A DNA stretch of 64,000 nucleotides from a virus. A program made the translations under genes and the position numbers. Numbering within the stretch: the first letter of the stretch is position 1; every line of letters begins with the position of its first letter. Of this stretch, positions 41,824 through 62,632 are shown one piece after another. The notes under the pieces were generated by a model. The model did not search any database, was not told the origin of the DNA, and saw nothing but the letters and a program-made list of their open reading frames with translations. The DNA lies in the IMG/VR virus record IMGVR_UViG_3300044470_000123, positions 1-64,000 of that record; one strand, given 5' to 3'.

Positions 41824-43224
41824 TTATATGATATATTGTATAGATAATTTAAATATTGATTTTGTATGAAATACTTTTTTTACTGATTTTTTAATATTAA
41901 AATCAATTTTATTTATCCCGTTAAAACAACGAACAGATCTTCCACAATGATGACTACCATTAACCACATATTTTTTACTGTTAATTGTAACTGTATCGTA
42001 AGGCTGTATAGAATATCTATGCCTTCTAATAGATGGTTTAAAACCTTTCCTATTTAACTGTATTATTCTATTATTTTTATGTTTTTGCTTAAAATATGTA
42101 GGATTAATTCTAATCTGATTAGTACCTCCTGCTATAACAAATGCATCATTATAATGGGTCTTTTCTAATCCTAACTCATTCCTATTAACAAAAGTCTCAT
42201 ATCCGTAAACTATCTTACAGTTTGGTAATATTTTTTTATATATGTGTTGAACTATTGTCATAAACGCAGCGTCTTTATATTGTTTATTCCTCTTAAGAGT
42301 GTCAAATAATTTATTTTTATGAAGTTTATCATGACATTTTTCATGCAATAAAGCTAAATTATCTTGCTTATTAGGGCCACCTTTAGATCTAGGTATAATG
42401 TGATGTATATGAGAGGAATTACCTTTACTAAACTCTTTATTACATAGCTGGCACTTTCCTTTTTCTCTGGCCATCAAATAAATTCTCATGTTTTGATACT
42501 CATACATGGGTCCTTGTTGGTACTCTAATTTAGTTATTTTTTGATTTTCTATTTTCTGGATATCAAAATTTCCTACCTCTATAGTTATATCTTCCTCATT
42601 TATAGGAAATCTTAATCTCAGTTTATTGATAAAATTTATATGAGTGTTAAACTTCCTTTTAATTGATGGGGCTAACCAACCTTTTGTTCTGGCGTTAGAT
42701 CTATTGTTGTGTCTAGCCTCTCTATACCACATCTTATCTCTACGTCCACCTCGATACATACTTTTACTTATTAATCTTTCAGGAGTTTTCTGATCCAAAT
42801 AAACTTCTCCTGTAATTATCTCTTCATCTTTAGTTATAACAGAAAATCCTATCTTCTTAGAGCCTGAGTCTATTCCAAAAGAATACTTCTTAACAGTTTC
42901 TCCTGTAGCCTTATTAAGTTGAATAGTAAAGAATAACCCGTTTTCTACGACATGTGCCTCTCCTTTTTTAAGTAGCTTTCTAGCCTTGCAGGGACTGCAA
43001 GGCTCAAGAGGTTTACCCCTCTTATTGAGTACACAAACTTTGGCAAATACCCTCAGGTCTTGCCCCTCTTTGTGTTGAGGTGGATCCACTTCGAGATTGT
43101 TTAAAGTCAGTACTTTGCTCGCCACACTGAGACTTTCGTCTCTGTTTAATGGCATGCTTGTAGAGCTACAGACTTGTGGAGCATCCGTAGGTACGTACTT
43201 TAACTTTCCTTTAAACTGCTGCAT
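41824..43224 (-). CDS. iscB: RNA-guided nuclease IscB (RuvC-HNH, Cas9 ancestor family)
   Basis: This 466-residue protein shows every IscB landmark in order: PLMP-type motif (VLNKRGKPLEPCSPCKARKL, 65-84), RuvC-I GIDSGSK (Asp119), Arg-rich bridge helix (157-180, MYRGGRRDKMWYREARHNNR), RuvC-II ITIEVGNFD (Glu216), HNH zinc motif (C258xxC261, H274-H275, C297) and RuvC-III THYNDAFVIAGG (His357, Asp360). All catalytic residues are present, so it is probably active. Family members cut DNA under guidance from an omega RNA encoded just upstream. The start is uncertain: the first 55 or so residues are unlike other IscBs and overlap likely RNA structure. M24, V34 (GTG) and V46 (GTG) are alternatives, but only the first ATG has AAAAGG before it. 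No TnpA gene lies nearby, so it is probably a stand-alone homing element. Confidence 0.9.
   Translation of the reverse strand: MQQFKGKLKYVPTDAPQVCSSTSMPLNRDESLSVASKVLTLNNLEVDPPQHKEGQDLRVFAKVCVLNKRGKPLEPCSPCKARKLLKKGEAHVVENGLFFTIQLNKATGETVKKYSFGIDSGSKKIGFSVITKDEEIITGEVYLDQKTPERLISKSMYRGGRRDKMWYREARHNNRSNARTKGWLAPSIKRKFNTHINFINKLRLRFPINEEDITIEVGNFDIQKIENQKITKLEYQQGPMYEYQNMRIYLMAREKGKCQLCNKEFSKGNSSHIHHIIPRSKGGPNKQDNLALLHEKCHDKLHKNKLFDTLKRNKQYKDAAFMTIVQHIYKKILPNCKIVYGYETFVNRNELGLEKTHYNDAFVIAGGTNQIRINPTYFKQKHKNNRIIQLNRKGFKPSIRRHRYSIQPYDTVTINSKKYVVNGSHHCGRSVRCFNGINKIDFNIKKSVKKVFHTKSIFKLSIQYII
42982..43004 (-). repeat. 10-bp perfect hairpin inside the iscB PLMP coding region
   Basis: AGCCTTGCAG and CTGCAAGGCT form a 10-bp perfect inverted repeat with a 3-nt loop inside codons for the PLEPCSPCKA motif. 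Such a strong stem in coding sequence may extend the omega RNA into the frame, lower translation, or just reflect the two Cys codons. The last is possible because both arms encode Pro/Cys and Cys/Lys. Confidence 0.5.
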
Positions 43225-43331
43225 AAAAGTTTACCTTTTAAGCCCTCTAATCAACTCTTACCCAGAACCTCACGGTTCTAACCATTTTAGATACTTTTAA
43301 AGTGGCAATTGACATGGGAGGTGTTGACATT
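43129..43331 (-). ncRNA. Candidate IscB omega RNA (HEARO-type) upstream of and overlapping iscB
   Basis: The minus strand from about 43331 starts ATGTCAACACC and contains short stems: ACTTT/AAAGT, then AGAACC-GTGA-GGTTCT with a GNRA tetraloop at 43264-43279, and GAGAC-GAAA-GTCTC with a second GNRA loop at 43129-43142, which lies within the first 32 codons of the long iscB frame. Family knowledge: IscB nucleases use an RNA encoded directly 5' of the gene, with its guide at the 5' end. The guide would then be the bases just 5' of the scaffold, within about 43332-43350 (AT-rich). The exact ends are not determined. Confidence 0.55.
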
Positions 43332-45397: not shown

Positions 45398-48343
45398 TTA
45401 AAGACTCTGACTAAGATTCAAGGTCACGATGATCCAGTTCAACGGATATACGGGACTATAGAAAACTTCTACATCAAGCGTCGAAGGATCAGCCTGGTCT
45501 ACCACTACCCTGATCCCCTTAAAGTCCACTATAATCTTATTGTTCTTAAGAGACTGAAAATAAGACTTCAAAGTATTAGTAACCTGTGGTATAATACTAG
45601 GCAAATTCTTCTGACCTATATACTGATCAAGAGCCTGCCTAACACCCTGCTGAACGAAATGCTTAACCTCAACTATACGAGGATCTCTTGTAAGGATATT
45701 ACTCAAATCAGAAGTTAGATACATCCTAATCTTAATCGATGTGGCTAAATCCTGAAGAACAGTACATCCTGAGTTCGCTACAAGCGCAGCAGTAACATCA
45801 TCCAACCTACGATATAACCTGTCAAAGCCTACTACGTTTTTATTAGTAAGAGGTGTAGCTATATCATAAACAGGATCACAGTCTAACCCTGCTACAGCCG
45901 CCGCTATAAATGACCCATCAACAAGATACTGAACATCATTACCAAAAGCATCAGGTATAGTCAATAAAGCAGCCTCAGGATAGATAGGGGTAATCTTCTC
46001 TGATCCTATAGCCTTACACTGCTGGATCGCTGCCTCTGGAGAAGTACCAAAAGCAAATCCTATTACACTTGTACGCTCATTACGATATTTGATGCTACTC
46101 TGTATCGCATTAGAAGTAGATAGATAACCCTGCACCGCAGGACTTGTAGTCATAGGCTGCATAAGCGAAGGCCTTGTCCCATCAGAAAGAGGCTCATTAA
46201 AAGTATCTATAGCATCAAAATAACTCTGATCTGGAGCGTCTGTACCACCAGAAGCTCTCTTTACCTGTAGAAGAGCTACTGACCTTGCACCATTAAGGAA
46301 AGCTAGGTTAGCCCCTAGTACTATCTTATTAGTAATATCTAAAGGACCAAAATCTGTAAAAATATCTCTCATGTTATTGTAAGACTTTACTGTGTAGTCT
46401 GTCTTAGTCTTATCAAAAGTTACATAGTAAGTGTCCCCAACATTAGGCTCATTACCTGACTTATTAAAAGTCTGAAGGATAACTGTGTCACCTGTATTAT
46501 CCTGTGCACCACCAGCAGTACTATCTATAGTAAGATTGATACCAGGTATCGCTTTTACTACAAAAGAAGTAGCAAACTCCCATGTCTGTGAGATCATAGG
46601 ATCAAGAGGAATACCTACAATATAAACTACCTTCTGACCTGTAGTAGGATTATAACCATCTATAGCAGCTTTAAAAGACACTCTGAAACTTGTTACAGAG
46701 TCTATATAAGTCTGACCCTGAAAACCAAGATTAGTAGCACCGGTACCCGTCTTACCTGTACCTGTAACAGCAAAACCACCCACACCATCAAAAGTCACTG
46801 TTACAGTCTCAACAGATGCTGTCAAAGGATCTATCTGTACATTCACAGCTCCAGACCCTGCATAAACAGGAGCTACCGTACTACCTGTACCAAGAGTAAC
46901 ATCTAACGCTGTCCCACTAAACTTAGAAGTAAGTAAATAACGACCTACCCCAGCAGCACCAGGAAGCTCATTAGTAATAGTCCATGTATCGTCTATGATC
47001 AAATTTTCATAGTAAGTCACATAAACACTATCATGCGAAGCAGTGGTCCCTTGTGCAGGAGCTAATTCTAAAGTTATATTGTTACCGTTTATCTGTGTAA
47101 CTAGCACTGGACCCGCAGAGTAAGCTGCATCCCATGAAGTACCTACATAAGCTACTATATTAGCAGGATCCTCTGTAGGAGTACCTGTACCTACACCATC
47201 CACAGGTGTGGAAGGTAGAGTAAATACTGTGTTACCTGAAGCATTAAGAGGAAAACCATCTGTACCTATAATATTTACATTGCCACTCTGTGCTATAGAA
47301 TAAGGAGTAGATATCCTACCATATACCTTAGTATCTGTAAGAGAAGCTATTACATTATTTATAAGAGGCGTAGAACCAGCAGTATAGATACCCGTAGAAG
47401 TCTCATAAGATGTACCCCAGTGTAACTCATTAGAACCCGCAAGAACTACATCCTGACCTATAGAGTAATCTGAAGTATCTGCACTTAGTCCAACTTTAAC
47501 TATGTCATTAACTTCTGCAGCAGGAAGAATATCAAAAGTGTCCTGCCAAGTATTTGTGAAATATGTAACTGTTACCGTGGCTCCATTAACAGGAGGAGTA
47601 GCAAACGTGAAAATACCGTGTGCTCCATCCAAAGCTATAATGGGAGTAATAACATTGTTAACTTTTACTTGAATAACTGGAACAGTTTTTGTATACTCAT
47701 TACCTGGAGTTAGAGGAGTAGGATTATAAAGGATACTTACTGTATTATTTATGTCTGCATCTGTAGCTGACTGACCACCATTATTACCCTTAACTATCCT
47801 TAAACTTCTAACTTTAAAATTTACTGCATTACCATCAGCCTGAAAAGAAAGATCTTCATTCTCTATGTAAGTATCCATCCTCTTAAAATAATAATTGACT
47901 TCAACATCATCTGTTGCAAGAGGGATGTCTACAAGAGTGACCGTACCAAGTAAACCGTTTATAGCGTTCACCGCTACTTGACTACCGTTTACTAAAACTA
48001 TAACCTGACTTGGTAGCGTCGCTACTTTGCCTGTGCCTGATCCCGTTACTAGAGGGAAGTTGGCTACTCTAAACTGATTAGAGATACCCTGTAATCCACC
48101 GATCCAACCTGGAGTAGTACTAGTTAAAGACTCTCCTACTACTTCTTCACCAAGAATAATATTGTCAGATATAGCGGAAGATCCACGGATCATACCAAAA
48201 TTGGATATACGGATCTGCTCAAAACCTACTCCAATTATAGCTGGAAAACGAACATTACCTGCAGCTGATGCTCCAGATGTCTGAGAGATGGTCTGTGTAA
48301 AAACCCCAGGGAATACGAAGGATTCTAAAGGTCCTATTGGCAT
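45398..48343 (-). CDS. Contractile tail sheath protein
   Basis: This 981-residue protein ends with a clear sheath domain: RTSVIGFAFGTSPEAAIQQ then AIGSEKITPIYPEAALLTIP, a GFDRLYRRLDDVTAALVANS segment, KIRMYLTSDLSNILTRDPRI and a final SPVYPLNWIIVTLNLSQSL, the C-terminal strand that links neighbouring subunits. The N-terminal half is enlarged with repeated beta modules (VNGSQVAVNAINGLLGTVTL, VTPIIALDGAHGIFTFATPP) not found in small sheaths. An AAAGGAGATTTAAA site precedes the ATG, and the 167-nt gap upstream holds the shared intergenic motif and a dyad. Confidence 0.85.
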   Translation of the reverse strand: MPIGPLESFVFPGVFTQTISQTSGASAAGNVRFPAIIGVGFEQIRISNFGMIRGSSAISDNIILGEEVVGESLTSTTPGWIGGLQGISNQFRVANFPLVTGSGTGKVATLPSQVIVLVNGSQVAVNAINGLLGTVTLVDIPLATDDVEVNYYFKRMDTYIENEDLSFQADGNAVNFKVRSLRIVKGNNGGQSATDADINNTVSILYNPTPLTPGNEYTKTVPVIQVKVNNVITPIIALDGAHGIFTFATPPVNGATVTVTYFTNTWQDTFDILPAAEVNDIVKVGLSADTSDYSIGQDVVLAGSNELHWGTSYETSTGIYTAGSTPLINNVIASLTDTKVYGRISTPYSIAQSGNVNIIGTDGFPLNASGNTVFTLPSTPVDGVGTGTPTEDPANIVAYVGTSWDAAYSAGPVLVTQINGNNITLELAPAQGTTASHDSVYVTYYENLIIDDTWTITNELPGAAGVGRYLLTSKFSGTALDVTLGTGSTVAPVYAGSGAVNVQIDPLTASVETVTVTFDGVGGFAVTGTGKTGTGATNLGFQGQTYIDSVTSFRVSFKAAIDGYNPTTGQKVVYIVGIPLDPMISQTWEFATSFVVKAIPGINLTIDSTAGGAQDNTGDTVILQTFNKSGNEPNVGDTYYVTFDKTKTDYTVKSYNNMRDIFTDFGPLDITNKIVLGANLAFLNGARSVALLQVKRASGGTDAPDQSYFDAIDTFNEPLSDGTRPSLMQPMTTSPAVQGYLSTSNAIQSSIKYRNERTSVIGFAFGTSPEAAIQQCKAIGSEKITPIYPEAALLTIPDAFGNDVQYLVDGSFIAAAVAGLDCDPVYDIATPLTNKNVVGFDRLYRRLDDVTAALVANSGCTVLQDLATSIKIRMYLTSDLSNILTRDPRIVEVKHFVQQGVRQALDQYIGQKNLPSIIPQVTNTLKSYFQSLKNNKIIVDFKGIRVVVDQADPSTLDVEVFYSPVYPLNWIIVTLNLSQSL

Positions 48344-50591: not shown

Positions 50592-51404
50592 TTACCGTTT
50601 TAGTATGTTAGCAGTTAAAATTTCTGTAATATTTTTAATTTCTTTATATGAAATTCTTAATAAAGGTATATTATTCTTTAAACAATATTCGTTTTTTAAA
50701 GAATCGTTATATTTTTGAATTTCAAATGCTTCTACAATTTCTTCTTCAGATAAATCTCTATTAAATCTAGTTGGCTTATAATGTATAATTCCGTCATATT
50801 CACAAAGTAGATTTATACTAGGTATATAAAAATCAAATCTTAAAGGAATCTTTTTTCTAAAACCTTTTAAATCGTGAAATGAATATTGCGGTTTAAATTC
50901 AACATTATTAAATATTAACCAATCTATTATGGTTATTTCTCCTAAAGAAGAACTGCACATATTACAACCGTACCCTAATAAGTGATATTGCGGGGCTTGC
51001 CAAAATTCCCCATGCTTTTTACATATTATGCAAATTTTTAATTTACTGCTAACATATTTTACTTTCGTATACTCATATCTGTCTCCATGAGTATCTTTAG
51101 ATTTTAAAATAAACTCTTCTGTAGTTGTAGTTCTTTTTTCAAGAGAACTTAGTTTACCACAAACAGGACAACCTGTACCGCGTGTGTGGGTACGGGGTAT
51201 CTGCCAAAACTCTCCGTGTATTCTACATATGATACATACTTTTATTTTAGTTTTAATATATTCTACTTTTGAGTAATCGTATCTATCTCCATGAATTACT
51301 TTAGCTTTTATAATAAATTCTTCTTTTATACTAACTCTTTTTTTAGCTGCTTTTAAATGTCCGCAAATAATACATCCATAACCTTGTAAATGTCCTAGTG
51401 GTAC
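50592..51404 (-). pseudogene. C-terminal part of the zinc-ribbon repeat nuclease (after an in-frame stop): repeats 7-9 plus Vsr-like nuclease domain
   Basis: Translation continues in the same frame straight after the TAA at 51405-51407, giving 270 residues without another stop. It completes repeat 7 (VPLGHLQGYGCIICG), adds two full zinc-ribbon repeats, and ends in a nuclease domain at the last 120 residues. The nuclease shows an early Glu (GEITIIDW), RFDFYIP, LCEYDGIIHY and PLLRISYKEI, the E/D..D..ExDG.xH layout of Vsr/DUF559-like PD-(D/E)xK nucleases. An internal ATG at 50960 would make a 122-residue nuclease-only protein. Without readthrough or that start, the cutting domain is not made. 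Confidence 0.7.
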
Positions 51405-52742
51405 TTAGTAAAACTCACCATGCTTTCTACAGATAATACAAACAGGAGTGTGCATATCAATATATTCTACTTTTGAGTAATCATATTCTCCTTTAAAATG
51501 TACTTTTTCAGCTCTGGTAATAAACTCTGAACTAGTAAGACTGTTATTTTCATAAGCACAAGCGTTGCATCCATATTTTTGCAAATGAAGTGTTGGTGTT
51601 TGAAAAAAATCTCCATGTTTTTTACATGTTATACAAACTTTTTTATTTGTTTTAATGTAATCTACTTTTGAATAAATATAGGTATCTTTACCGTGTATAA
51701 TTTTTGATTTTTTTATAAACTCCTCTGTATTTGAAGAATTTACAGAAGAAATTATCTCTAAAGCACATTTTTGGCAACCTCTTCCGTTTAGGTGTGAATC
51801 TGCTTTCTGCCAAAATTCACCGTGTTTTTCACATAATATACAAATTTTTGACTTACTGCCAGTATAGTTTGTTTTTAAATAAGTATACCTATTTTTATGT
51901 ACTTTTTTTGCTTTTTCTATATACTCTTCTGTAGTTACTGTACTATCTACCCTAACACATACGGGACAATCTTGACCGGACAAATGATTACCAGGAGTTT
52001 GCAAAAACTCTCCGTGAATAAGACATCTTATACAGACTTTCTTATCAGATCCTATATAATTTACTTTACTATATTCATATCTATTACCGTGAACTATTGT
52101 AGCTTTTTTTATAAATTTTTCTTTAGCATCTAAAATCCTTCTATTACTGTATTCCTCTGTAGCACACCTAAAGCATCCATTTTTATTTAAATGACTACTA
52201 GGGCACTGCATAAATTCTCCATGTACCTTACATATAATACAAACTTTATCTACAGTATTAATATAAACTACTTTATCATAGATATATCTATCTCCGTGCA
52301 CACTTATTGCTTTACTTATAAATTCTCCTGTTGTCATTGTTCTAGTTTTACTACCATCTATAGGACATCCGCTACCATTCAAATGATTTGAAGGAATCTG
52401 CATAAATTCACCGTGCTTTTTACATACTATACAAACCGGTACAAAACTACCATAATATTTAACTTTTGAATAATCGTACTTATTTCCATGAATAGAAATA
52501 GCTTCCTTTATAAAATCATTTTTTGTCTTCATTTTTTTAATACTTCTATTATTTATATCACATTTTTTACATTTAGAACCTACTAAATGACTGTACGGGG
52601 CTTGTAAAAAATCTCCGTGTATTCTACATGTAATTATTATTTTTATACAGGCTCCTAAATATTCTACTTTATCATAAATATACCTATCCCCGTGTTTAGC
52701 TCTTGCTCTTTCTATAAATTTTTCAGTCGTAAATTTTTGCAT
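51405..52742 (-). CDS. Zinc-ribbon repeat homing-endonuclease-like protein, N-terminal part (ends at an in-frame stop)
   Basis: This 445-residue frame holds six full copies and the start of a seventh of a repeat of about 65 residues: (E)FIxKAxxVHGxRYxYxKVxY, then KVCIxCxxHGEFxQ-P..HL.G.GCxxC. Each has two CxxC-type zinc knuckles. Such arrays occur in phage and giant-virus DNA-binding nucleases and probably set DNA contact. It stops inside HGEFY with TAA, where other copies have Trp/Phe-Gln; CAA to TAA is a single change. AGGAGAAGAAGGT precedes the ATG, downstream of a structured leader. Probably a free-standing homing endonuclease between virion genes; the intact gene would give about 716 residues. 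Confidence 0.75.
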   Translation of the reverse strand: MQKFTTEKFIERARAKHGDRYIYDKVEYLGACIKIIITCRIHGDFLQAPYSHLVGSKCKKCDINNRSIKKMKTKNDFIKEAISIHGNKYDYSKVKYYGSFVPVCIVCKKHGEFMQIPSNHLNGSGCPIDGSKTRTMTTGEFISKAISVHGDRYIYDKVVYINTVDKVCIICKVHGEFMQCPSSHLNKNGCFRCATEEYSNRRILDAKEKFIKKATIVHGNRYEYSKVNYIGSDKKVCIRCLIHGEFLQTPGNHLSGQDCPVCVRVDSTVTTEEYIEKAKKVHKNRYTYLKTNYTGSKSKICILCEKHGEFWQKADSHLNGRGCQKCALEIISSVNSSNTEEFIKKSKIIHGKDTYIYSKVDYIKTNKKVCITCKKHGDFFQTPTLHLQKYGCNACAYENNSLTSSEFITRAEKVHFKGEYDYSKVEYIDMHTPVCIICRKHGEFY

Positions 52743-58077: not shown

Positions 58078-59439
58078 TTACATTACAATATTTTCAAACG
58101 TAGGGGTCCTGCCTTTAACCTGGTACTGTTCAGGGATCCCAGGCTTATCATTAATAACAGGACTAGCATCCGTAGGTCTTGGCCCCCTATATGCATTCCA
58201 TGAGGGAGGTACCGAAGTCTCTCCACCAGTTATAGGTACAGTATATCTAACATCGTGCTGAGGCAACTGAGCTAGCTCAAAATGCTGCTGATATATAGCC
58301 CCTCTAGACCCTTGTGCATTTATATGATCCACAGAAAATCTATCATTATTTTGACGTACTATAAAATCACGAGATGTGAGAAGAGGGTAAGGTCCAGTCC
58401 ACGTACTCCAATTATAATTTACTCTAAGTCCTACATCTCCAAGATTTACTATCTTGTCTGTTTCAGGAGGTGCTACTATTATATCTATAGGACCTTCATA
58501 CCCCCCTACATAGAAAGTTCCTTTACAAACCGTATCATCCTCTTTCCCCTGCCTATACTGCTCATCCCAACAAGTACACCTGATCCCACTCCACTTCCTA
58601 ACGAATAACTTTACCCTTTCTCCACCCTCCTCAAGGATCCACCTATTCCTACGGATAGCCTCAGCCCATATCCAGTCTATCTTCTCTATATCATACGGAC
58701 TAAACGCTTCTACCTGCTCCAAAGGAGTCTCCATAGTAACATCAGTACACCCTGTCTTATAAGCTACCGTAGAAACTTTATAGTATATCTTCCTAAATAT
58801 GTCAGTCTGTATCAAATTATTCACATAAGTATAACTTATCCTTATCTCTCCACCTTTAGACAAATCTGGTAGGATAGGATCATCTAACCTATTAGTCTTG
58901 TTGTTGTATATCTTAGAACTTATTAAAAATATCTCTCCATCCTCACCCACCACTCTAAAAGCTGGTACAGTAATAAACTGATCAGCTGCCGTCTTCTTGA
59001 TGTCTACTCTAACATAAGTTGGATTGTTGGCTATAGTCCCATTAGACCCAGGTATAACTATAGGAGTATTATAAGTCTTTGCTACCCATAGTCCATTCGC
59101 TGTAGTACCTGGGATAAGCCTTCCACCCTGCACAGGATCCTCTGTAACATACTGTTCAGTAGTCTGGTCCCTGTAGTATGGGATACCTATAGGGATCGTG
59201 TTTAACTTGGTGTAAGGACCTTCAGGAGAGTCATAGGACTTATATACATTCACTCCAAGGACATATAGACTGTTATTTTCAGCATACGTAGCAGGATTAT
59301 CCCATCGGACATCGATGATACCTATAAGATAAGGACTTGTCACATTCACATTACGAGGAGCTAATGGTAGCGATGGAGGCGTGTCATCCCCAGACCTGTA
59401 AGGTAAAGGGAAGTCGGGACGATTGTAGTTGTAGATCAT
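58078..59439 (-). CDS. Neck or head-tail connector-type virion protein
   Basis: This 453-residue protein has a fibronectin-like N-terminal region (LPLAPRNVNVTSPYLIGIID, VRWDNPATYAENNSLYVLGV). A second part reads DWIWAEAIRRNRWILEEGGE then VKLFVRKWSGIRCTCWD...CKGTFYVGGYEGPIDIIV. This IRRNRWILE...R.WG.xC..W....C.GT.FVGGY pattern is known to me from neck/structural proteins of several large myoviruses, with the Cys residues likely binding zinc. It lies on the capsid-proximal side of the tail genes, which fits a neck role. A 15-bp inverted repeat surrounds its ribosome site region. Confidence 0.6.
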   Translation of the reverse strand: MIYNYNRPDFPLPYRSGDDTPPSLPLAPRNVNVTSPYLIGIIDVRWDNPATYAENNSLYVLGVNVYKSYDSPEGPYTKLNTIPIGIPYYRDQTTEQYVTEDPVQGGRLIPGTTANGLWVAKTYNTPIVIPGSNGTIANNPTYVRVDIKKTAADQFITVPAFRVVGEDGEIFLISSKIYNNKTNRLDDPILPDLSKGGEIRISYTYVNNLIQTDIFRKIYYKVSTVAYKTGCTDVTMETPLEQVEAFSPYDIEKIDWIWAEAIRRNRWILEEGGERVKLFVRKWSGIRCTCWDEQYRQGKEDDTVCKGTFYVGGYEGPIDIIVAPPETDKIVNLGDVGLRVNYNWSTWTGPYPLLTSRDFIVRQNNDRFSVDHINAQGSRGAIYQQHFELAQLPQHDVRYTVPITGGETSVPPSWNAYRGPRPTDASPVINDKPGIPEQYQVKGRTPTFENIVM

Positions 59440-59514: not shown

Positions 59515-60225
59515 TTAAACAGCTCCAGGAGAGTTGTCATCTGGGTCGAGTTTTATGTGCTTGGGATATGGAAGTTTATCAAATATATCTTCTTTTACTG
59601 TGCTAGACTCTTGTGCTTTATCTTTATTTTTATATCTTTGTTCTTTAGTTACTAACAATAGTGGATTTTCTACACCATAACGAGCCATATTTGTGTCTTT
59701 AGCCTTTTGAAAAACATCAGGATTTTGCATTGGACTTTTATACCCAAATTTTTCTATGTTCGTCTTTATAATTTTATCTTGTATCTCTTTTGACTTAAAA
59801 ACATTATCTACTCCGTATTTTTCACGTACTGTTTCAGTTACCCTAGCTCTAACAGAAGCGGACTGAGTTGGGTAATCTGTACCTCTATTAGCTCTATTAG
59901 TTTTTTTAGTTTCTTCTTGAACAGCGTCTTCATCCCTAACAAGTCTGAGTACCATATTGGCATGCCACCTAATAGCTTTCCAAGTTTTACCTAGAAATTT
60001 AGACATGATAAATTCATGGGTATTAGAAGCATATATCTCTTCAAGAAGATTATCTTCTGCTTCAGTCCACCCTCCTTCCCTATCTCTTGATAGCCCTAAT
60101 AATATAGATCGTCTATAAATAGATTTCCATTCTCTATTAGGGAGTTTTGATAGGATAACTTCCTTAATAGAATTTTCATAGACTTCTTTAAGTATTTTGT
60201 CTTCTTCTAGAGTCCAGTGGATCAT
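59515..60225 (-). CDS. DNA-binding protein: Myb/SANT-like modules plus KYGVDN-type repeats
   Basis: This 236-residue protein has two tandem Myb/SANT-like helical units at the N-terminus (HWTLEEDKILKEVYENSIKE and GGWTEAEDNLLEEIYASNTH, each followed by a WKxIxR-like helix). The C-terminal half carries three copies of a repeat built on (K/R)(Y/F)G(V/Y)(D/E)N with an intervening helix (EKYGVDNVFKSKEIQDKIIK, EKFGYKSPMQNPDVFQKAKD, ARYGVENPLLL). Both modules occur in phage homing-endonuclease-like proteins as DNA-binding units. No nuclease motif is seen. It lies downstream of the LAGLIDADG-methyltransferase gene and may be its partner or an eroded mobile gene. Confidence 0.6.
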   Translation of the reverse strand: MIHWTLEEDKILKEVYENSIKEVILSKLPNREWKSIYRRSILLGLSRDREGGWTEAEDNLLEEIYASNTHEFIMSKFLGKTWKAIRWHANMVLRLVRDEDAVQEETKKTNRANRGTDYPTQSASVRARVTETVREKYGVDNVFKSKEIQDKIIKTNIEKFGYKSPMQNPDVFQKAKDTNMARYGVENPLLLVTKEQRYKNKDKAQESSTVKEDIFDKLPYPKHIKLDPDDNSPGAV

Positions 60226-60285: not shown

Positions 60286-62574
60286 TTAAATTTTCTGCCA
60301 GACTAATAAAACTTCAGCAGCTGTAATATCTTTTCTTCTTGTTGAAGTGAACCAATACATAGTATCTTTTTCTAATAAAGTAGTCTTAGGAAGATACTCT
60401 TTAAGATATCTTGGAATATTTAATACAAAATATCCTTTTGATTTTAGTGCCTTTTCAGCATATATAAATATATTTTTTATAAGTGTTTCCCATTGATTTT
60501 TATCCATTGGCTTTCCATATACTTCTAAATCTATGTATGGCGGTGAAGTCATAATAAGATCACAAGCTACCGGTGCGGTATTTAAATAAAAATCAGAATT
60601 TATTATATGTGCTTTATCTTTTAAACCATAGTAGTCTATAATACTATTTAATCCTTTAGCAGTTTTATCCCAAGGTTCAAATCCACAATAGTTTCTATTA
60701 GCAGATACAGTACCTAATAATCTGCCTCCCCAACCTGCACAGGGGTCTACTACAGTATCTCCAACTTTAGAGTATCTTTCTACAATAGCTTTTGCTACAC
60801 TACACGGGAATCCAGTTACTCCCCCATTAAAGTATACCAAACTTTTATATAAAAAATCCGGCAAAATAGTTTTATTAGCTTTATAAGTGTATATTAAAGC
60901 TGATCTTAGTGCTGTAAAATTATTGAATGTGCTAAAAGGTGATACACCTTTATATTTAGATTCTACCATATGAGGCATAAAATTTTTGAATATTTTATTA
61001 CCTGCGCTTAGATACCTTATAACATTATTATTTTTCCAGATATAACTAGTATTTAGTTCACACATACTCTCATATTCTTTATTAAGATAATCTTCATTTA
61101 TATTAAAATAAGGAAATCCTCTTTTTTGATAATATTCCGTAACTCTATTCCATATATACTCATATTTTTCTGCTATGTAACTATTAATTAAACAAAGATC
61201 AAAATCATTTTCTACTTTAACATCAAATAACTCTGGTAAATGTTGTTTCCAAAAAGACCCTACTTCAGAAGCATCTGGTACTTTATCAGCCATGCACGGT
61301 ATAAGATACTTTGGATTTATCCCTTCCACTCTTACTGTTGATTCATTTTCTAATTTTAGTTTTTCTCGAAATATGTATCTATTCTCAAATTTAGAGATAT
61401 ATTCCTTTTTCATACTCATATCAGTACTACTGCCAAAATAGAAACCGTCATCCATATAATAGCAAGCCCATCCTAGTTCAGTTAGTTCTGAAAATATCTT
61501 TTCTAAATTTTTTGTCCCGTTCTCGTTTATGTATTTGTTATAATCTCCTATATTTGGGCAAGATATACCTAGTTGTTCTATACCTCCAAAAATCATGAGT
61601 TTTTCAGTTGATGAAAAATGTGAGGCAGGTACCGTTACAATATTTGAAACACTGTTATATAAAACCTGTCTTTTTAGATATAAATATGATAATTGTTTTA
61701 AACTGTGATTGGTTACAAAACGCCCATATTCATCTAGATGCCCGTCTCCTGCTAGCCAACCAAGAATACATTGATGCCTTTCTTCTTGAGATAATTCAAA
61801 ACTTGGTTTAGGTAAATTTAGTAAATAGTCTCTTAAATATTCTAAATTTTTAGACCATAGCCTTCTATCATCTAAAATTTCAAGATTATTTTCTTTAAAT
61901 TTTCTTTTAACAACAGTACTAGATATACCTATTTCTTCACACAGTCCTTTCATACTAATTTTTGATTTAATTTTATCATCTAACCAATCTTTATCTATAG
62001 TATCAAATTTATTACTAACCTCATTAACTAGATATTTTCTTAAACTAACAAGACCTATTTTCTTAATATAGGTTAAAATAATATCATCAGATATATAAAC
62101 TCCTAATTCCTTATTTAATATATTACTTATGTCTGATATTCTGTTTCCATCTTCTATCAATTTTTTAGCGTAGTCGTAGGATAGATGACTATAAAGCCAC
62201 TCTTCTTTAGAAGGAAACTTACAATCTACTTTATTTATTAGATGATATTCTATGGTATGTGGAAGGGCATCAAAATTATGCTGTTCTTTAAGTACCTTAC
62301 TAATTTCTTCAGAATACATTAATTTATTAATTCTTAGATCTACTGCTATTTTAGTCATTTCCTCTGACCAAATTGTCTCTTCTTTGATTTCTCTTTTGTT
62401 CTCTAAAAAACCTTTTTTCTTTAATATACTAATCTGTCTTTTTATCCAACGAGGGGATTCATTTAATTTTGCGGCTAGCTCTGGGCGAGTGAGTGTAGAG
62501 AAGTTGTCTATTATGAATGATAACTTCTCTACAGATTTTCTATCGGCAGTAATTCCTTTTGTGGGACCTGACAT
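60286..62574 (-). CDS. LAGLIDADG homing endonuclease fused to a DNA methyltransferase
   Basis: This 762-residue protein has three parts. Residues 1-250 hold helix-turn-helix segments (LTRPELAAKLNESPRWIKRQ; ISMKGLCEEIGISSTVVKRK). Residues 265-480 are a LAGLIDADG endonuclease with motif 1 CILGWLAGDGHL (269-280) and motif 2 LGWACYYMDDGFYFG (about 367-381). Residues 560-762 are an amino-methyltransferase with motif I VVDPCAGWGGRLLG (608-621) and motif IV TSPPY (676-680), an N4-cytosine/N6-adenine type. No intein ends (Cys/Ser start, His-Asn end) are seen, so this is a fusion rather than an intein. A host-type promoter lies upstream, unlike its neighbours. Confidence 0.8.
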   Translation of the reverse strand: MSGPTKGITADRKSVEKLSFIIDNFSTLTRPELAAKLNESPRWIKRQISILKKKGFLENKREIKEETIWSEEMTKIAVDLRINKLMYSEEISKVLKEQHNFDALPHTIEYHLINKVDCKFPSKEEWLYSHLSYDYAKKLIEDGNRISDISNILNKELGVYISDDIILTYIKKIGLVSLRKYLVNEVSNKFDTIDKDWLDDKIKSKISMKGLCEEIGISSTVVKRKFKENNLEILDDRRLWSKNLEYLRDYLLNLPKPSFELSQEERHQCILGWLAGDGHLDEYGRFVTNHSLKQLSYLYLKRQVLYNSVSNIVTVPASHFSSTEKLMIFGGIEQLGISCPNIGDYNKYINENGTKNLEKIFSELTELGWACYYMDDGFYFGSSTDMSMKKEYISKFENRYIFREKLKLENESTVRVEGINPKYLIPCMADKVPDASEVGSFWKQHLPELFDVKVENDFDLCLINSYIAEKYEYIWNRVTEYYQKRGFPYFNINEDYLNKEYESMCELNTSYIWKNNNVIRYLSAGNKIFKNFMPHMVESKYKGVSPFSTFNNFTALRSALIYTYKANKTILPDFLYKSLVYFNGGVTGFPCSVAKAIVERYSKVGDTVVDPCAGWGGRLLGTVSANRNYCGFEPWDKTAKGLNSIIDYYGLKDKAHIINSDFYLNTAPVACDLIMTSPPYIDLEVYGKPMDKNQWETLIKNIFIYAEKALKSKGYFVLNIPRYLKEYLPKTTLLEKDTMYWFTSTRRKDITAAEVLLVWQKI

Positions 62575-62603: not shown

Positions 62604-62632
62604 AATATACCATGTTTAAAAGGAGATGTCAA
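62604..62632 (-). promoter_or_regulatory. Host-type sigma-70 promoter of the methyltransferase fusion
   Basis: Minus strand TTGACA (62632-62627) and TATATT (62609-62604) are separated by exactly 17 nt, upstream of the AAAGGAGGAT ribosome site and ATG at 62574. It contrasts with the shared late motif and suggests early or independent expression. Confidence 0.6.

Follow-up and report, generated by a model that had tools for sequence, protein, structure and literature searches.

The window, by which we mean the whole 64,000-nucleotide stretch analysed, comprises 64,000 of the 68,105 bases of its virus record and carries genes of a contractile-tail phage, e.g. a tail sheath gene at 45398-48343 (phrog_2839, 1.2e-25). 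On its minus strand an open reading frame encodes a 762-residue protein (P0001), in which a helix-turn-helix (HTH) region, a LAGLIDADG nuclease domain and a DNA methyltransferase (MTase) domain follow each other. The gene and the features in and around it are the following:

60286-62574, minus strand: gene of P0001, HTH + LAGLIDADG + MTase, 762 aa; open, with an ATG start; full-length homologues in L003, L005, L014 and L018, a partial one in L004
61858-62574, minus strand: N-terminal helical/HTH region, residues 1-239; Pfam HTH_11 and HTH_24 below cut-off, helices in AlphaFold2 (AF2) model 1
62392-62556, minus strand: HTH of residues 7-61, common to the C-terminal HTH of nuclease-Mom proteins encoded in the same slot (tblastn 45-60% identity, alignment, collection scan)
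61366-61773, minus strand: LAGLIDADG_2 domain of the I-SceI family, residues 268-403 (Pfam; profile of 22 proteins against I-SceI)
61741-61764, minus strand: LAGLIDADG motif 1, LGWLAGDG, residues 271-278; G276 and D277 invariant in 22/22, D277 opposite I-SceI D44
61444-61467, minus strand: LAGLIDADG motif 2, ACYYMDDG, residues 370-377; D375, D376 and G377 invariant in 22/22, D376 opposite I-SceI D145
60289-61164, minus strand: C-terminal amino-methyltransferase domain, phrog_12517-like, residues 471-762 (Pfam, PHROG, VIA Z 18.2, profile matches to N4-cytosine MTases)
60721-60747, minus strand: MTase motif I, DPCAGWGGR, residues 610-618; D610, P611, C612 and the glycines invariant in 22/22
60535-60549, minus strand: MTase motif IV, TSPPY, residues 676-680; invariant in 22/22
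62604-62632, minus strand: promoter-like TTGACA-N17-TATATT with TG before the second hexamer, 11/12, ending 30 bp upstream of the start codon
62655-63998, minus strand: upstream gene, consisting of the C-terminal part of a neck-like structural gene, a split-intein C-half and a Vsr-like endonuclease (NCBIfam intein N- and C-terminal regions, vsr)
59515-60225, minus strand: Myb + DUF7487 ORF, 236 aa, akin to the N-terminal part of the relatives' nuclease-Mom proteins (Pfam DUF7487 8.9e-14; tblastn to L013 40%, E 1.7e-44)

The initial annotation, made from the letters of the window, had placed both LAGLIDADG motifs and both key MTase motifs in this one protein. This was borne out by Pfam, where both domains score above the cut-off: LAGLIDADG_2 in residues 268-403 with E 6.8e-8 and 33.1 bits (cut-off 25), and N6_N4_Mtase with E 5e-8 and 33.6 bits (cut-off 26.7). 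The N-terminal HTH units claimed by the same annotation are present as an HTH region, but their Pfam matches (residues 20-56 to HTH_11, and residues 204-226) are sub-threshold. The claim of an own promoter fared similarly: TTGAC(A/T)-N17-TATATT or TATAAT is kept at the equivalent position in three of the four other upstream regions (L005, L014 and L018), but L003 lacks it and promoter-like sites were not in excess in the region as a whole (14 found vs 14.8 expected). These four relatives, but not the window, carry a GGNCC box (GGNCCNAG) just upstream of the -35 hexamer, overlapping the promoter region; it is possible that this box is an operator or the remnant of a site. The nuclease of P0001 is of the LAGLIDADG type, and no PD-(D/E)XK family was matched by P0001 in Pfam. 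LAGLIDADG_3 (PF14528) had no match within the protein's own record. The idea of an intein-borne LAGLIDADG was rejected: P0001 matches no intein model in Pfam or NCBIfam, whereas the neighbouring ORF matches both intein models of NCBIfam.

The domain order of P0001 recurs in five proteins of the window lineage encoded on other contigs, which are 64% (L003), 65% (L004, a partial homologue cut by the contig edge), 43% (L005), 48% (L014) and 40% (L018) identical to it. Because homologues of the same architecture occur on other contigs, at identities of 40-65%, an assembly chimera, which had been named as the possible undoing of the fusion, is excluded. L005 is contig WJJK01000382.1, binned with an archaeal MAG yet bearing phage structural genes. 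Scanning with two narrow alignments (A1 and A5) brought no further contigs, and a search for plasmid relatives of P0001 found none. The MTase domain used as query returned at least 333 relatives, of which 80 were kept, and among the matches listed at least 18 further long MTase proteins contain LAGLIDADG_2 above the cut-off, as judged from ORF sizes and Pfam. The six proteins of the window lineage were aligned with 16 of these 18 (L093 and the truncated L149 were left out), giving a set of 22 fused proteins which are 20-65% identical to P0001. The columns that are invariant across all 22 include, for LAGLIDADG, G276, D277, D375, D376, G377 and K431 and, for the MTase, D610-P-C...G.GGR and TSPPY. 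The dN/dS ratio was 0.11-0.22 wherever it could be computed, with dS near saturation; in two of the seven comparisons dS was saturated, and therefore no ratio was obtained. Together with the invariant columns, these values indicate that both halves of P0001 are maintained and under purifying selection.

A profile built from the 22 fused proteins matched I-SceI with an E-value of 1.3e-24 over I-SceI residues 25-227, thereby confirming the LAGLIDADG family. In this alignment D277, D376 and K431 stand opposite D44, D145 and K223 of I-SceI, of which D44 and D145 are the catalytic acids. The MTase part of the profile matched the putative modification methylase 2zie in the PDB and, among the N4-cytosine MTases, 8s9m with 2.2e-6 and 1boo with only 0.04. 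The best named PDB sequence matches are N4-cytosine MTases, which suggests what base may be methylated by P0001. An AF2 model of the whole protein, made with six sequences, was poor (pLDDT 64.1), so the prediction was run a second time for residues 236-762 with 22 sequences (pLDDT 90.5, pTM 0.86). The MTase fold is clear in this model (VIA Z 18.2, rmsd 2.4, 171 aligned, class I MTases). When it was compared with PDB structures, the MTase domain took up the listed matches, hence there was no LAGLIDADG enzyme among them. The weak first model matched I-Tsp061I in the PDB at E 0.016. In BFVD, a library of viral structures, phage LAGLIDADG models were matched at E 2.6e-6 to 5.4e-9. A refutation by a missing LAGLIDADG fold, which the initial annotation had also envisaged, did not come about.

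Some LAGLIDADG proteins have lost cleavage, and P0001 could be imagined as a targeted methyltransferase whose LAGLIDADG part serves as a DNA-binding module only. The comparison of the window with L003, in which the MTase domain is the more conserved one (68% identity vs 59% for LAGLIDADG), speaks for such a function. The invariance of the LAGLIDADG acids in all 22 proteins argues for retained cleavage, as do the joining of the same MTase to other types of nuclease and the position in a slot adjoining a virion gene, which is typical of homing enzymes. We consider a loss of cleavage very unlikely.

The P0001 gene is free-standing and lies directly 3' of the neck-like virion gene, on the same strand. 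In the window and in L005 (L005:3127-4957) a split intein breaks up the neck-like gene and brings along a Vsr-like endonuclease, a layout known as the 'fractured gene' arrangement; in L003 (L003:5034-5930) the neck-like gene is uninterrupted. The neck-like gene of the window continues at contig positions 64213-65037 (L002:9214-10038). The best 80 of 99 contigs with this gene were retrieved, and the slot was classed in the 12 closest loci. Three have a P0001-type gene (L009, which is the contig of L003, L014 and L018), five have on the opposite strand a gene for a nuclease joined to a Mom-type domain (L010-L013 and L017), and in four the slot is empty (L015, L016, L019 and L049, of which L015 and L049 are near-identical). 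The empty alleles which the initial annotation had proposed to look for do exist. The five nuclease-Mom genes are:

L010:7892-9970, minus strand: Myb/DUF7487 nuclease + Mom-type domain (Mom PF25680 above the Pfam cut-off, as in the four below)
L011:7950-10085, minus strand: the same
L012:7899-10268, minus strand: the same
L013:7893-10376, minus strand: the same
L017:8000-10507, minus strand: the same

The flanks align across the slot between L010 and L019 and between L014 and L019, although the latter pair are phages only about 67% identical in DNA. Both flanks of L010 and L011 are 95-97% identical and half of the nuclease-Mom gene between them only about 65%, which looks like a sign of local replacement. 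It must be noted that every carrier in the window lineage keeps the P0001-type gene at one place, and this weakens the case for recent mobility of this particular gene. In the window the 236-aa Myb + DUF7487 ORF is likely to be a remnant of a nuclease-Mom gene.

Other possible traces of mobile genes were seen in the window and in the relatives. At 41824-43224 and 43080-43328, both on the minus strand, the window has an IscB-like protein (RRXRR 2.9e-47, HNH) together with a HEARO RNA (RF02033, 91.2 bits) that overlaps it. A small nuclease-like ORF at 50592-50960 (weak DUF2726) and a repeat-rich ORF at 51405-52742 on the minus strand (weak DUF4379) are possibly further mobile-gene parts. The homologue of the 453-aa protein of the window (58078-59439) in L004:4358-7075 contains, by eye, an apparent intein with LAGLIDADG-like motifs, and directly behind the P0001 homologue of L005 there are serine-recombinase-like and TnpB-like ORFs (L005:7443-9468), IS607-like by eye.

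The two kinds of slot occupant have a DNA-binding module in common. In L011, L012, L013 and L017 the nuclease-Mom protein, encoded on the opposite strand, ends in a stretch that matches residues 7-61 of P0001 with 45-60% identity (tblastn); the nuclease-Mom protein of L010 is without this C-terminal HTH end. A scan of the viral_contigs collection with an alignment of the HTH returned eight loci, seven of which are the neck slot (three P0001-type, four nuclease-Mom), the eighth (L183) being a chance match of 23 residues inside an antisense ORF. It follows from the alignment and the scan that two nuclease-modification fusions which are unrelated to each other have the same HTH and occupy the same slot.

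The MTase family of P0001 is joined to several other nucleases. The partner is HNH in L115, where the match is strong (phrog_374, 4.5e-105), and Vsr in L094 (Pfam). A PD-(D/E)XK-like nuclease was assigned in L098, L100, L106, L116 and L139 from weak PHROG matches, and in L122 and its near-copy L137 from a motif read by eye; the GIY-YIG-like label of L103 likewise comes from a weak PHROG match or a motif seen by eye. Next to the Vsr-MTase fusion of L094 lies a gene (L094:972-2684, LR756508.1) for a 570-aa phrog_3339 'homing endonuclease', whose C-terminal part looks GNAT/Mom-like. In a tree of 86 MTases, from which L145 and L171 (motif I pattern unmatched) and L152 (motif IV missing) had been left out beforehand, the nuclease labels are scattered among one another within a single clade of fused proteins (SH-aLRT 91), and seven label changes are needed. 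Stand-alone MTases occupy 51 of the 86 rows; these relatives are about 330 aa long, the phrog_12517 family model, whose function is unknown in PHROGs, being 316 aa.

Among the MTase relatives listed, 27 of 30 fused ORFs have their start no more than 220 bp beyond the 3' end of a virion gene. For the 18 LAGLIDADG fusions that do not belong to the window lineage this is always one major head gene (phrog_2522, 8e-51), at a distance of 5-220 bp; for the seven PD-(D/E)XK-like fusions, two of which are near-identical, it is in each case a sheath gene, 40-110 bp away. The fusion of L103 follows a gp23-like head gene at 170 bp, and that of L096 (the same as L003) follows the neck gene at 74 bp. Three fusions fall outside the pattern: L094 (2,019 bp), L115 (none) and L097 (at a contig edge). 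Of the listed MTases that stand alone or are unclassed, 55 in number, a single one is found within 300 bp of a queried virion gene, a figure which has to be read with the origin of the queries in mind: they were drawn in part from fused loci (major head L093 and L146, sheath L106, gp23-like L103, neck L003), only the sheath of the window was independent of MTase fusions, and stand-alone MTases beside other structural genes would therefore be missed.

LAGLIDADG genes readily invade other genes, thus it could be thought that a domestic phage MTase by chance gained an in-frame N-terminal nuclease with which it has no joint function. The recurrence of the fusions with different nucleases and beside different virion genes is hard to reconcile with such an accident, and so is the purifying selection on both parts, and we give this explanation hardly any credence.

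At the major-head site LAGLIDADG genes occur both with and without the MTase. The 80 loci comprised ten with LAGLIDADG-MTase, 17 with LAGLIDADG but no MTase (three of these, L204, L207 and L241, cut by contig ends), three with the MTase behind another N terminus, 42 with neither and eight that were too short; L201 and L202 were first scored as empty, their LAGLIDADG ORF beginning upstream of the cut-off, so that two of the 42 become LAGLIDADG-only. Sixteen LAGLIDADG-only genes form one clade, which also holds one fused member, L119. L189:5992-8280 and L208:6047-8635 encode at this site MTases that belong to the same family and have zinc ribbons at the N terminus, and in which PD-(D/E)XK-like segments were noticed by eye (phrog_13389 in L208). 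L234 and L232 have flanks that are 99.4-100% identical. In L234:6017-7645 the HTH and LAGLIDADG parts are kept with intact motifs and the MTase core is deleted; in L232:6037-6294 a further 1,351 bp are missing and an 85-aa stub is left. The pair shows stepwise decay of a LAGLIDADG-MTase gene, in which the MTase core was lost first and LAGLIDADG afterwards. With its MTase core deleted and its LAGLIDADG part intact, L234 shows that the site tolerates a nuclease that has lost the MTase, at least for some time, and the existence of MTase-less LAGLIDADG relatives at a comparable site means that marking is not obligatory.

Such survival of MTase-less LAGLIDADG genes is one of the observations that favour the main rival of our preferred interpretation, namely that the MTase is cargo. 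The nuclease would then be a real homing nuclease, and the MTase would methylate short, frequent sites against host restriction and not the homing site; the fusion would make a selfish gene useful to its own phage. Mom is an anti-restriction modification, and the rival occupant of the neck slot bears a Mom domain. Phages frequently carry members of the MTase family as stand-alone proteins, which is compatible with a general modification role and speaks against self-marking. However, the MTase is fused to, and not merely a neighbour of, several nuclease types, and HTHs are common to unrelated fusions; both suggest coupled targeting. We regard the cargo explanation as rather unlikely, albeit worth serious attention.

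Behind the major head gene, plain LAGLIDADG and LAGLIDADG-MTase genes also occur in tandem (L259:5953-9328 and L248). This is what would be expected if the modification marked the slot so that a competing homing endonuclease, be it nuclease-Mom or plain LAGLIDADG, could not displace the resident. The sharing of one slot and one HTH by unrelated nuclease-modification fusions, and the remnant of the other type beside the intact P0001 gene in the window, fit the same idea. Tandem genes and remnants can, however, also arise by chance succession, and exclusion of rivals seems to us improbable as the function of the modification.

The reading of P0001 as a homing endonuclease and an MTase in one polypeptide, put forward in the initial annotation, is upheld by domain searches, by the conservation of catalytic residues, by structure prediction and by the polymorphic location of the free-standing gene; its domain make-up, the invariant catalytic residues, the predicted fold of the MTase, the recurrence of the fusion and the polymorphism of the slot are established. 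That P0001 also marks its own site is plausible, and we would give an even chance to its being a homing endonuclease with built-in DNA marking, by which its target is protected from itself. In the usual view, homing endonucleases escape self-cleavage in one of two ways: their target is disrupted by the insertion, or it has changed in sequence. For P0001 we envisage that the HTH region, and probably LAGLIDADG too, has its recognition site in or close to the 3' end of the neck-like gene next to it, and that the I-SceI-type LAGLIDADG domain would cut this site in co-infecting phages without the P0001 gene, repair after cleavage copying the gene into the slot. The fused MTase, of N4-cytosine/N6-adenine type and steered by the same DNA-binding domains, would methylate the target or nearby DNA, and methylation would spare the carrier, perhaps also a freshly converted recipient, from being cut. 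The carrier would still hold the target because the P0001 gene sits beside the presumed target and leaves it intact. According to PMC2988022, the cleavage sites of free-standing endonucleases lie hundreds to thousands of bp away from the genes that encode them, so a target can survive in the carrier.

We tentatively extend this proposal, with somewhat more doubt than belief, to a general class of self-marking homing elements hosted by phages, in which LAGLIDADG, HNH, PD-(D/E)XK-like and GIY-YIG-like nucleases are combined with a phrog_12517-type MTase or a Mom-type domain and are directed to the 3' ends of virion genes by exchangeable HTH or zinc modules. Each would amount to a one-gene restriction-modification system that propagates by homing and uses modification to defend its slot or make it immune. 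If true, the joining of a nuclease with a DNA-modifying domain would offer a third escape from self-cleavage and would connect homing endonucleases with restriction-modification systems, with which they may share a history. That such fusions recur with different nucleases and with two kinds of modification chemistry opens the self-marking idea to direct tests. Genome engineers may also take an interest in an I-SceI relative that carries its own methylase, and a context is now available for the phrog_12517 family.

The initial annotation regarded such an arrangement as apparently not well described, and in agreement with this no description of a LAGLIDADG-MTase or a homing-endonuclease-Mom fusion came up in full-text searches of the open-access literature, a body of text that mostly leaves subscription journals uncovered. 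Each half of P0001 belongs to a known family, and their combination is new as far as found. P0001 resembles I-SceI and the LAGLIDADG_2 family (PF03161) in being a single-chain, two-motif LAGLIDADG protein with aligned catalytic acids; I-SceI, however, is intron-encoded and has no MTase, whereas P0001 is the product of a free-standing gene and has an HTH region and an MTase. The best PHROG match of the MTase domain is phrog_12517, whose relatives also stand alone. With Type IIG restriction-modification enzymes P0001 shares the union of a nuclease and an amino-MTase in one chain. Type IIG enzymes have a PD-(D/E)XK nuclease and a short recognition site; P0001 differs from them in its LAGLIDADG nuclease and its homing-type location. 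The T4-type Seg and Mob enzymes, as presented in PMC2988022, are like P0001 encoded by free-standing genes in intergenic slots between genes conserved in related phages, but they are GIY-YIG or HNH and not LAGLIDADG nucleases, and the terms 'methyl' and 'modification' are absent from that text. The Slx1-type GIY-YIG nuclease-MTase fusions of Lactobacillales, according to PMC1564403, likewise consist of a nuclease and a Rossmann MTase, theirs with an NPPY motif, and a restriction-modification-like role was suggested for them by the authors; unlike P0001, they are bacterial genes, with the Slx1-type GIY-YIG nuclease and a COG4123-type MTase at the N terminus.
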